NCBI GenBank assembly: GCA_030622435.1
Contig: JAUXGE010000004.1
Span: 1 to 35,003, forward strand
Source of the DNA: Planctomycetota bacterium
GTDB taxonomy: Bacteria; Planctomycetota; Phycisphaerae; UBA1845
Direction of reading: 5' to 3'
DNA: 35,003 nucleotides
The notes under the pieces are model-generated. The model was not told the origin of the DNA and did no database searches. It saw only the letters and a program-made list of their open reading frames with translations. Shown here piece by piece: positions 1-12,553 of this stretch. Numbering within the stretch: the first letter of the stretch is position 1; each line of letters begins with the position of its first letter. A program made the translations under genes and the position numbers.

Positions 1-229
1 CCGGTCCTCGCTGCTTCAGGAATCGCGCGATCGAGCTGTCGTCCGACGTCGGTTCCAGCAACTCGATCTGGACCTCACCCAACCGAAACGAGACGACACG
101 CACCTTCTGGTCCGGGATCGTCTCGGTTCCGACTACCTCCAGTCCGAGCACGTCGCGGTAAAGCCGGCTCGCTTCCTCGATGGAGTGCACGGCGATGCCC
201 AAATGATCTATCTGTGACGGCGGCTGCAT
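1..229 (-). CDS. mce: methylmalonyl-CoA epimerase, partial (3' end beyond window)
   Basis: Reading the minus strand from the ATG at 229 gives 76 residues starting MQPPSQIDHLGIAVHSIEEA and staying open to the window edge. The pattern IDHLGIAV, then a helix ending in YRDVLGLEV, then VRVVSFRLGEVQIELLEP is the N-terminal half of a vicinal-oxygen-chelate (glyoxalase-fold) methylmalonyl-CoA epimerase. The His of DHLGIAV and the Glu of IELLEP are expected metal ligands. The enzyme interconverts the (S) and (R) forms of methylmalonyl-CoA, feeding the mutase encoded just upstream. The 319-base spacer to mcmA is unusual for the group. No clear Shine-Dalgarno precedes this ATG, but an upstream ATG is followed at once by a stop. 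The assignment to methylmalonyl-CoA rather than another glyoxalase-fold substrate rests on both motif and context. Confidence 0.88.
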   Translation of the reverse strand, partial: MQPPSQIDHLGIAVHSIEEASRLYRDVLGLEVVGTETIPDQKVRVVSFRLGEVQIELLEPTSDDSSIARFLKQRGP

Positions 230-548
230 AGCACTACATAAACGTCGAAACGTCGAAAAGTCAAAACTTCAAAACAACAAAAGCAAAACAACAAAAAAGA
301 AGAACAACAAAAAAGCAAGAAAGCAAGACGGAAAAACGGCAAAAGGCGAAAAATCGAGAAGTCTAAACAAGGAACCGAGGAGGCGTCAACCTCCTCTTTC
401 AACGTTGTGCGTTTGTCCTCTTCGGCTTTTGTTGTTTGACATCTCAAAGTTTCAAAGTGTTGAATTCTCTTCTTCTCTTCTTCTCTTCTTTTTTTCTTTT
501 TTTCTTTTCTCAGTTTTGACGTTTCGACTTTTTGACGTTTCGACGTTT
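230..548. repeat. low-complexity imperfect palindrome between mcmA and mce
   Basis: This 319-base spacer has no credible gene. On the plus strand its left half (about 240 to 360) is almost all A with C/G-punctuated runs, and its right half (about 405 to 548) is pyrimidine rich, so one half is roughly the reverse complement of the other. The outer arms share the word CGAAACGTC: 240-267 contains AAACGTCGAAACGTCG followed by AAAAGTCAAAAC, and 513-548 contains the inverted equivalent, ending one base before the mcmA stop codon. At the middle, GAGGAGG (377-383) and CCTCCTC (390-396) form a perfect 7-base-pair stem with a 6-base loop. A transcript reading through could fold into a hairpin of about 300 bases. 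No T tract follows the central stem, so a standard terminator is not supported. Confidence 0.7.
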
Positions 549-2222
549 CTACGTCGTTTGTTCTTCGTACTCCCCGAACACGTTCCGCAAGCGATCGCAA
601 ATCTCGCCGACGGAAGCGTACGCGCTGACGGCGTCGAGAATCAGCGGCATGAGGTTGTCCTCGCTGCGGGCGGCGGCCTCGAGCGTATCGAGCGCCCGCT
701 CGACCGCTGCCTCATCGCGCTCAGCGCGGACCCTGGTCAGTCGATCGATCTGCCGGCGTGTGGCCTCCTCGCCAATCGTCAGGGTATCCGGCTGCGTGTC
801 CTCCTTGGTGGTGTAGCGGTTGACGCCGACGATCGTTCGCTCACCGCGCTCGATCTCCTGCTGATAACGGTAGGCGGACTGCTCGATCTCGCCTTGCGGG
901 TAACATCGCTCGATCGCCCGCACCATGCCGCCCATCTCGTCAATTCGCTTGATGTATGCCTCCGCCTCCGCCTCGATCCGGTCCGTTAGCTGCTCGACAT
1001 AGTAGCTGCCCGCCAGCGGATCGACCGTGTTGGCGACCCCCGACTCATGAGCGATGATCTGCTGCGTTCTAAGGGCGATCTGGACGGCCTGTTCCGTGGG
1101 CAGTGCGAGAGCCTCGTCCCGGCTGTTCGTGTGGAGCGACTGGGTGCCGCCTAGCACGGCCGCCAGCGCCTGGAGTGTCACACGAACGACATTATTATCG
1201 ACCTGCTGCGCCGTGAGAGTCGCGCCGCATGTCTGCGTATGGAACCGTAGCATACAGCTTCGCGGGCTCTTCGCGCCGAACCGATCTCTCATGATCCTTG
1301 CCCACAGCCTCCTGGCTGCGCGGAACTTGGCCACCTCCTCCAGCACGTCCGTCATTGCACCGAAGAAAAACGCGACCCGTGGGGCGAACCGGTCCACGTC
1401 CAGGCCCGCGGCTTGGGCGGCTTGGACGTAGGCAATGCCGTCGGCCAGCGTAAAGCCTATCTCCTGGGCGGCCGTCGAACCCGCTTCGCGGATGTGATAA
1501 CCACTGACGCTGATCGTGTTGAACTGCGGAACGTGCCGGGCCGCGAAGGCGAAGATGTCGGTGATCAACCGGAGTGACGGCGCGGGTGGGAAAATGTACG
1601 TTCCACGTGCAATGTACTCCTTGAGCACGTCGTTCTGGATCGTACCGGTGAGCTTCTCCGGCGAAACCCCCTGCTTTGCCCCGACGGCGATGTACATCGC
1701 CAGCAGCACCGCCGCCGGCGCGTTGATCGTCATCGACGTCGAAACATTGTCGAGCGGGATCGAGTCGAACAGAATCTCCATGTCGGCCAGGGTGTCGATC
1801 GCGACACCGACCTTGCCGATCTCGCCGGCTGCCAGGACGTGGTCACTGTCGTAGCCGATCTGCGTCGGCAGATCGAACGCGACACTGAGCCCGGTTTGAC
1901 CCTGTTCGAGTAGAAAGCGATAACGCTCATTCGTCTCCTCGGCTGTCGCGAAGCCGGCGTATTGACGCATCGTCCAGAAACGCGAGCGATACATCGTCGG
2001 CTGTACACCGCGCGTGAACGGGTACTCGCCGGGAAAACCAGTTTGACGCAGGTACCCCTCGCACACTGCCTGATCCGCCACGTTCTGGGGAAGATACAGC
2101 GTCTCGACGGGCGTGCCGGAAACCGTCACCTGCCGATCCGCCTGTTCAGGTATTTTCTCGACAGACCGAGCGAGCATCTCCGTCTTCCATCGCTCAACGT
2201 GTGGTCGCAACGCATCGCTCAT
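549..2222 (-). CDS. mcmA: methylmalonyl-CoA mutase, catalytic (alpha) subunit
   Basis: The 557-residue protein matches the TIM-barrel catalytic part of methylmalonyl-CoA mutase and stops where the B12-binding domain would begin in a full-length enzyme; that domain is a separate gene at 3504-3911. Active-site residues corresponding to Tyr89, Arg207 and His244 of the Propionibacterium enzyme are visible as Y78 (PTMY), R206 (ARGTYIFPP) and H243 (SGYHIREAG). This favours methylmalonyl-CoA over isobutyryl-CoA, whose mutase carries Phe and Gln at the first two positions. Other family blocks are [27 protein letters not shown] and [12 protein letters not shown]. The product isomerises (R)-methylmalonyl-CoA to succinyl-CoA with adenosylcobalamin. 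AGGAG lies about 8 bases before the ATG. It follows meaB by 84 bases, in the same direction. Confidence 0.96.
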
Positions 2223-11458: not shown

Positions 11459-12553
11459 CTATGCATGAACCACCGAGCGCCCTCGCCGACCGGTCAGCGG
11501 CGACCGTCCCGTCAGCTCGTACACGTATGCCAGAATCTCCGCGATCGCCTGATACAGACGCTCCGGAACATGATCACCCACATCGACCGCCTCGTACAAT
11601 GCACGAGCCAGCGGCGGTCGCTGCACGATCGGTATCCCGAACTCCGAAGCCAACTGCCGAATCCTCAGGGCGAGCAGGTCGGCCCCCTTCGCAACGACCT
11701 TCGGAGCCGCCATCATCTCGGGCTCATAACGGATGGCGACCGCCACATGCGTCGGATTCGTCACCACGACGTCGGCCTTGGGAACCTCCTGGCGCAGACG
11801 CTGCAAGGCCAACTGGATCTGCACCTCGCGCCGGCGCCGCTTGATCTGCGGATCACCGTCCATACTTCGCAACTCGTCCTTTACCTCCTCCTTGGTCATA
11901 CGCATGTCACGCTCGTGCTTGTATCGCTGCCAAGCCAAATCCAGTAGCGCGAGGATCAGCAAGGCTGCAGCAAGACGCATCCCCAGGTCAAACACGAAGG
12001 ACGAACTCAAACTGAAGATCTCGGGAAACCCGAACGTAACCGCGTTGATGATCGCGGGAGCGCTCCACATAATCGTCAAATAAGCCACCGTGCCGACGAC
12101 AAGCAGCTTGCCGAAGCTCGACACCGCCATCATGACCGAGCGAATCGAGAAGAGACGCTTGAAGCCGCTGAGCGGACTTATCTTGCTGAGACTCGGCATA
12201 AGCGGCTTCCACGTGAACAGAAAACCCACCTGCGCAAAAACGCTCAAGAGGATGGCGAAAAAGAGAATGATCAGAAAGGGCAGCAGGCGTCGGAACGACT
12301 CGACAGCCACCGCTCCGGCAAACGGCATGACCTCGTCAAGCCGTGTCGCAGAGTCCATCCCCAGCCCCGTCCGCGTTATCGCGAGCAGAGTCCTCCAGAT
12401 CCCTGGCCCGAGCAGCGCCAGGGCGATGAAGCTCGACAGGAGAAGCACGGCCGCACTCAGATCCTGGCTCTTGGCAACGTTGCCCTGCTCGCGCGTCTGC
12501 TCACGCCGTCGCGGTGTCGGTGGTTCGGTCTTGTCGTCAGCGTAACCGGCCAT
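11459..12553 (-). CDS. flhB: flagellar export switch protein FlhB
   Basis: The 364-residue protein starts MAGYADDKTEPPTPRRREQT, the usual FlhB N-terminus, which fixes the ATG at 12553; it shares one base with the fliR stop (TAATG), so the two are translationally coupled. Four membrane helices occupy about residues 32-205, followed by the cytoplasmic domain with the autocleavage site NPTH at 266-269 (VVTNPTHVAVAIRY). Cleavage between Asn and Pro lets the export apparatus switch from rod/hook to filament substrates, in concert with FliK (21730-23094). The C-terminus ends in a short basic tail (TGRRGRSVVHA). Length and motifs are normal for the family. Confidence 0.98.
   Translation of the reverse strand: MAGYADDKTEPPTPRRREQTREQGNVAKSQDLSAAVLLLSSFIALALLGPGIWRTLLAITRTGLGMDSATRLDEVMPFAGAVAVESFRRLLPFLIILFFAILLSVFAQVGFLFTWKPLMPSLSKISPLSGFKRLFSIRSVMMAVSSFGKLLVVGTVAYLTIMWSAPAIINAVTFGFPEIFSLSSSFVFDLGMRLAAALLILALLDLAWQRYKHERDMRMTKEEVKDELRSMDGDPQIKRRRREVQIQLALQRLRQEVPKADVVVTNPTHVAVAIRYEPEMMAAPKVVAKGADLLALRIRQLASEFGIPIVQRPPLARALYEAVDVGDHVPERLYQAIAEILAYVYELTGRSPLTGRRGRSVVHA

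Follow-up and report, generated by a model that had tools for sequence, protein, structure and literature searches.

Dispersed intergenic arrays of heptamers or octamers have been reported repeatedly, with neither an origin nor an agent. Rehm et al. (2015, PMC4692102) reported heptameric intergenic repeats in Xanthomonas (GGGAATC) and Nostoc (GGGGA(C/T)T) that show the same edge preference as the arrays described below; no function was assigned to them, G4 structures were proposed, and four-helix proteins are unmentioned. Dispersed heptamer arrays are also found in Beggiatoaceae, as TAACTGA direct repeats (MacGregor 2015, PMC4679880). The 23S rRNA IVSs, for their part, are suspected to be mobile and lack a mechanism. 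The IVS of Coxiella burnetii (PMC4990558) is an element made up of a hairpin and an S23p/IVP ORF and is excised by RNase III. The Pfam family of such proteins, PF05635, resembles Avd of diversity-generating retroelements (PMC10053308), and "23S rRNA IVP" appears in a figure legend of domains in a 2023 clustering study.

The window, that is, the whole stretch of 35,003 nucleotides (nt) analyzed here, is a single contig (C70) of genome G000 (4.2 Mb in 423 contigs, 76% complete). On the minus strand, the gene order is meaB, mcmA, a spacer, and mce, whose start ATG lies at 227 to 229. The gene beyond the spacer is a Glyoxalase_4 protein by profile match, and by its context next to mcmA it is mce, encoding methylmalonyl-CoA epimerase. 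The spacer contains a palindrome of 309 nt, at positions 240 to 548 (Table 1). The initial annotation had it begin at 230; the palindrome is real, but positions 230 to 239 are plain spacer.

Table 1. Features of the mcmA-mce region (positions in the window)
Feature	Position	Strand	Basis or remark
mce-like glyoxalase-fold gene, cut by contig end	1..229	-	PF13669 E=1e-12
Plain spacer, 10 nt, element to mce start codon	230..239	.	Sequence
Left arm, octamer array AAACGTCG AAACGTCG AAAAGTCA AAACTTCA AAACAACA	240..279	+	5' edge 240, facing mce start
Left arm inner part, decayed, A/G-rich on plus strand	280..373	+	
Central hairpin GAGGAGG-TTGACG-CCTCCTC (minus strand), 7 Watson-Crick pairs	377..396	.	
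Right arm inner part, decayed, A/G-rich on minus strand, period about 8	397..516	-	Complementarity at composition level
Right arm, octamer array AAACGTCG AAACGTCA AAAAGTCG AAACGTCA	517..548	-	5' edge 548, directly after mcmA stop
mcmA stop codon TAG	549-551	-	Read from sequence
mcmA, methylmalonyl-CoA mutase	549..2222	-	PF01642 E=1e-229 and translation

The element consists of two inverted arrays of an A-rich 8-nt unit, AAACGTC[G/A], both reading inward from the edges. The arrays are perfect at their outer edges and decay inward to purine- or pyrimidine-rich sequence. Unit scores (matches of 7, edge to center) run 7,7,6,6,5,3 and onward on the left and 7,7,6,7,4,4 and onward on the right; as the arrays were anchored at the outer edge, the perfection there is partly built in, and we do not count this gradient as proof. 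Direct reading of the sequence bore out the initial description of arms built of CGAAACGTC-type words, with a purine-rich left half and a pyrimidine-rich right half (in the middle, an A/G-rich stretch gives way to a T/C-rich one around a small central GC hairpin). The perfect central stem of 7 bp (GAGGAGG/CCTCCTC) is likewise present, and the right array does begin directly after the TAG of mcmA.

Folding of the minus-strand RNA, which had been suggested as a check, gave a strong structure (minimum free energy [MFE] of -113 kcal/mol for 331 nt, z = -6.2). Under a stricter null, in which each half was shuffled separately and the purine/pyrimidine asymmetry was thus retained, the 309 nt still folded at -110.2 versus -75.7 ± 5.0, and none of 200 shuffles was as low. 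An origin of the palindrome by chance or composition is thereby rejected, although the interior alone, without the outer 40 nt per side, fails the same test (23 of 200 half-wise shuffles were as low). The true complementarity therefore resides in the octamer arms, and pairing of the interior is mainly a matter of composition; the earlier view of the two halves as rough reverse complements is right, with the refinement that the inverted repeats proper are the arms. No Rfam family matched above its gathering score (best match, 16.8 bits; cutoff, 100). The spacer contains two weak terminator-like motifs, with a terminator count near the shuffle level.

The same site was compared in relatives. In G001, of the same genus, the mcmA-mce spacer contains a palindrome of 116 nt built of the same octamers, and its interior is not conserved with that of the window element. 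The congener G002 shows the same array start at mcmA, followed by a run of N, and the other-genus genome G009 has an empty mcmA-mce spacer of 33 nt. As judged from these three sites, the element is a genus-level, length-variable insertion or expansion, and the G001 palindrome leads us to reject an assembly artifact. A target-site duplication could not be read, as the arms vary in length and the sole empty site for comparison is that of the divergent G009. Two further observations concern the assemblies themselves. G002 is a single-contig assembly in which the N run begins inside the octamer array (L091, G002:C1 near 2554663), as if a hairpin had stopped assembly. In G000, the end of contig C194 (L076, 11400 to 11720 in contig coordinates) corresponds to window positions 1 to 296, with a nearly identical copy of the 3' part of mce and the left arm (99% over 73 nt), and departs from the window sequence after position 11600; either it comes from a variant strain or the two contigs overlap and the assembly broke at the element.

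Octamer arrays are dispersed through the genome. Searches with the element and its word returned 71 BLAST places, and the octamer pattern with at most 2 mismatches gave 122 matches, versus 19 for the reversed control. Most octamer copies are solo arrays beside genes (taken from the pattern matches), and no constant palindrome was found among the copies compared. A search for further copies, proposed initially, thus succeeds for the arm word, in dozens of places, but yields no complete second copy of the full spacer. Of 52 arrays taken from the genome and from two congeners, 18 have a stop codon, belonging to an ORF of 80 codons or more, directly at the 5' edge of their A-rich strand; the figures for comparison are 2 of 52 at the 3' edge and 3.7% for random positions. 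Often the array itself completes the stop codon, as in TAG|AAAC, T|AAACGTC, and TG|AAAC. Many copies beside stop codons had been named as the mark of a dispersed element, and together with the spacer that is empty in another genus, they agree with the suggestion that the element has its own history. The contrary case, an assembly artifact with no other copies, is excluded by the dozens of arrays and by the palindrome at the same site in G001.

Some arrays lie in other settings. In-frame octamer arrays occur inside long ORFs, namely uvrA on C40 (L070, near 9228 and 10022) and a molybdopterin-dehydrogenase-like gene on C261 (L029, near 1445), both named by eye from their translations, and are translated there as K/R/S-rich inserts. 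A second dispersed repeat, CCGCTCCCT(C/T)ACGGTCGCGGTTC(T/G)GAT, occurs in tandem next to several octamer arrays (C315, C410, C189, and C13; L010, L019, L068, and L028). A third, intergenic, contains TGATCGCTCAAC...CACCCCGCACGTTATTCATATAGGAAGGAAGTGCGC and lies beside octamer and GGATGAA arrays (C260, C143, C385, C137, and C247).

On contig C227, between moxR and DUF58, two octamer arms with the same outer geometry as the window element are separated by about 640 nt (edge to edge); the window element matches this locus at 81% over 79 nt. The ORF between these arms matches PF05635, 23S_rRNA_IVP (E=3e-19), and TIGR02436, four helix bundle protein. A profile search of the genome found four PF05635 loci, none on contig C70, so the window element has no IVP gene; nor was an IVP remnant seen in its interior. 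At three of the four loci, the inverted tandem-repeat arms are clear, and no two of these loci share a word (the octamer on C227, AATTACG on C103, and GGATGAA on C66), and the arms of the fourth, on C176 (GAATGCGG), are short and weaker. The IVP gene on C66 (L087, 7760 to 8057) is split over two frames and is probably decaying.

This arrangement is not confined to one genome. Among 78 PF05635 loci from this genome and 60 relatives, flank-flank complementarity had a median of 43 for a locus's own arms versus 18 for swapped flanks, and 46 of the 78 lay above the 99th percentile. At 77 named loci from Acidobacteria, Chloroflexi, Cyanobacteria, Proteobacteria, Bacteroidetes, Planctomycetes, and other phyla, most arms have a period of 7, with words such as NNTCAGC; in the TCAGC class, a locus's own arms are often no better matched than those of other TCAGC loci. 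IVP genes with the same arm type and annotated neighbors are found on cyanobacterial plasmids, and in Calothrix brevissima an arm starts directly at the stop of the upstream gene. In a gammaproteobacterial sample, 20 of 27 loci exceeded the 95th percentile for arms. The solved IVP structure, 2GSC, is that of XCC0516, a Xanthomonas campestris locus tag; the locus itself is absent from this sample, but the sample includes relatives (best, 65%), several with G-rich arms such as GGGAATA (L337). In total, inverted arms of a 7- to 8-nt tandem repeat bracket most IVP genes at about 200 loci from many phyla. It is also worth recording that at three cyanobacterial plasmid loci (L321, L324, and L327), the IVP gene sits between CRISPR genes (cas6-IVP-cas4 and cas10-IVP-cmr3), a placement that may be the reason for its listing among CRISPR-linked domains.

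Arm word and IVP sequence go together. IVP identity correlated with arm 5-mer similarity (rho 0.51; null maximum, 0.10). A prospective check agreed: AAACG-type arms are present at most of 16 additional IVPs with scores of 100 bits or more against the C227 protein, and octamer arms at none of 13 IVPs at 69 to 77 bits. The octamer-type IVPs compared are not many independent insertions, as might be supposed; all lie at one orthologous site, between genes for a MoxR-type ATPase (PF07726) and DUF58 (PF01882). We therefore repeated the test without syntenic pairs. Omitting pairs that share a flanking homologue, rho was 0.49 overall (null maximum, 0.09) and 0.41 for the named loci (null maximum, 0.21). 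For the window's relatives alone, it was weak, at 0.14 (null maximum, 0.10), so it is chiefly the cross-phylum set that carries the coupling outside synteny. For the octamer subfamily, vertical descent can account for part of the coupling and of the co-occurrence, because all of the IVPs compared occupy one syntenic site.

That site itself lends independent support to the coupling: the same interval in G001 and G002 (moxR TAG to DUF58 start) holds an IVP with GATTGTC arms that is 36 to 38% identical to the octamer IVP of G000, between neighbors that are 86 to 87% (MoxR) and 93 to 94% (DUF58) identical to those of G000. To judge from this comparison, the IVP and its arms were exchanged together. 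Of 397 genomes of the class, 17 carry an IVP that reaches 100 bits or more against the C227 protein; octamer arrays were found in 13 of these and in 18 of the other 380. The contrast within the order was 13 of 17 versus 18 of 81 (Fisher P = 4e-5), a test that still contains host phylogeny. Four genomes (G001, G002, G004, and G317) have many octamer arrays and no close octamer-type IVP that we could find. The arrays kept in G001 and G002 after the IVP exchange fit relics, and they also count against strict dependence.

Taken together, we are inclined to read the 309-nt palindrome as an ORF-less member of a repeat family whose fuller form is the IVP cassette, defined here as a PF05635 gene between inverted 7- to 9-nt tandem-repeat arms. 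The palindrome has such arms, and their word is that of the IVP cassette on C227 in the same genome, but it has no PF05635 gene inside and is thus a related ORF-less form only, probably non-autonomous. In the fuller form, the gene of a small four-helix-bundle protein of the 23S rRNA IVP family (PF05635/TIGR02436) lies between two inverted arms of 7- to 8-nt tandem repeats that often begin right at the stop codon of a gene. We infer that the IVP protein recognizes its own arm word, as DNA or as a long hairpin RNA, and that it may help to copy the arms to other locations; pairs without an ORF, such as this one, and solo arrays would then arise in trans. The arms would be homogenized at the outer edge and decay inside. 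A transcript of the mcmA-mce spacer would fold into a long hairpin, which by analogy with the 23S IVSs would probably be cut by RNase III. We know of no catalytic activity for IVPs.

The occurrence of the same inverted-arm type around small four-helix-bundle genes across many phyla suggests a little-recognized family of mobile cassettes. More broadly, and tentatively, IVP genes with matching inverted arms could constitute a widespread, previously unrecognized class of mobile elements without a recognizable transposase or a reverse transcriptase of their own, in which each IVP lineage recognizes a 7- to 8-nt word of its own and, at stop codons, seeds solo arrays as well as pairs lacking an ORF. 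This might account for the dispersed heptamer and octamer arrays of many bacteria, the Xanthomonas and Nostoc ones among them. A protein family from whose sequence the adjacent repeat word can be predicted joins the array problem with that of the IVSs and makes both testable. It would also explain the "four helix bundle proteins" found inside unrelated operons, CRISPR loci among them, and would counsel caution against assigning them a role there.

Several other explanations must be weighed. Two solo octamer arrays of the same repeat family could have grown or inserted independently, one at the mcmA stop and one at the mce start, forming a convergent pair that never had an IVP gene. We regard this as a real possibility, if not a favored one: solo arrays are the majority of the genome's octamer copies, Xanthomonas has many convergent heptamer pairs (70 in Xcc; PMC4692102), and the interior has neither an IVP remnant nor complementarity beyond its composition. 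On the other hand, the paired state at this site is common to G001, and the outer geometry equals that of the C227 cassette. Replication slippage in a plain simple-sequence repeat, with no protein recognition, would suit the short tandem units, the length variation between congeners at one site, and the inward decay. It is nevertheless very unlikely, as slippage makes neither inverted pairs nor dozens of dispersed arrays of one word and gives no account of the one-sided preference for stop codons, and the word follows IVP sequence across phyla and is swapped with the IVP at one site.

The initial annotation also offered an RNA structure that separates mcmA from mce expression. A transcript would be predicted to fold strongly, and such an effect is possible, but the reading is not needed. 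As an account of the element's origin, a host regulatory RNA, that is, an intercistronic hairpin or terminator insulating mcmA from mce, draws on the very stable predicted RNA, the location exactly between the two genes, and the two terminator-like motifs. We think it unlikely given that G009 does without the element, the interior is not shared with G001, terminators are no more frequent than in shuffles, Rfam gave no match above threshold, and arrays of this kind stand behind unrelated genes and are even found in frame within two genes. Dispersal in many inverted, intergenic copies per genome is also what a REP- or MITE-type element moved by a Y1 (RAYT) or DDE transposase would show. That there is no fixed palindromic body of 20 to 40 bp and no constant terminal sequence, that the arms are tandem repeats of variable length, and that the gene between equal arms is an IVP rather than a transposase make this hardly probable.

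Read as an ORF-less relative of the IVP cassettes, the element can be set against the described systems. The 23S rRNA IVS shares with the cassettes the protein family and the plan, in which stem-forming inverted repeats bound an element with an ORF in its loop. The elements described here differ in lying in intergenic regions of ordinary operons (the window element between mcmA and mce, not inside a 23S rRNA gene) and in having arms made of short tandem repeats, with a word that changes with the IVP; the window copy, moreover, is ORF-less. With respect to Avd retroelements, RVT_1 was not found in 6 of 18 tested genomes carrying an octamer-type IVP (G000, 76% complete; G044; G056, 97% complete; G237; G320; and G359). 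Retro-mobility dependent on an RVT_1 enzyme in the same genome is thus not supported, with the reservation that G000 is incomplete, and a reverse transcriptase of its own seems not to be required. REP/REPIN sequences with their RAYT (PMC3116915, PMC2817692) follow an analogous plan, with one coding locus that has matching flanking repeats and many non-autonomous copies; the protein here, in contrast, is a four-helix bundle without transposase motifs, and the repeats are tandem arrays, not fixed palindromes.

The closest repeats are the Xanthomonas and Nostoc heptamers, with which we group the cyanobacterial STRR sequences. The octamer arrays resemble them in being tandem units dispersed in intergenic regions with a gene-edge preference, but the window unit is an A-rich octamer and not a G-rich heptamer. 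The Beggiatoaceae TAACTGA arrays are alike in that they are intergenic, are common to distant lineages, overlap stops in some cases, and are suspected of mobility; they differ in their mostly single orientation toward start codons, and no IVP link has been reported for them. We found no paper in the open-access literature that links IVP genes to tandem-repeat arms. The parts are known already, in the 23S IVS and in the Xanthomonas and Nostoc heptamers; the link between them appears, within that literature, to be new.
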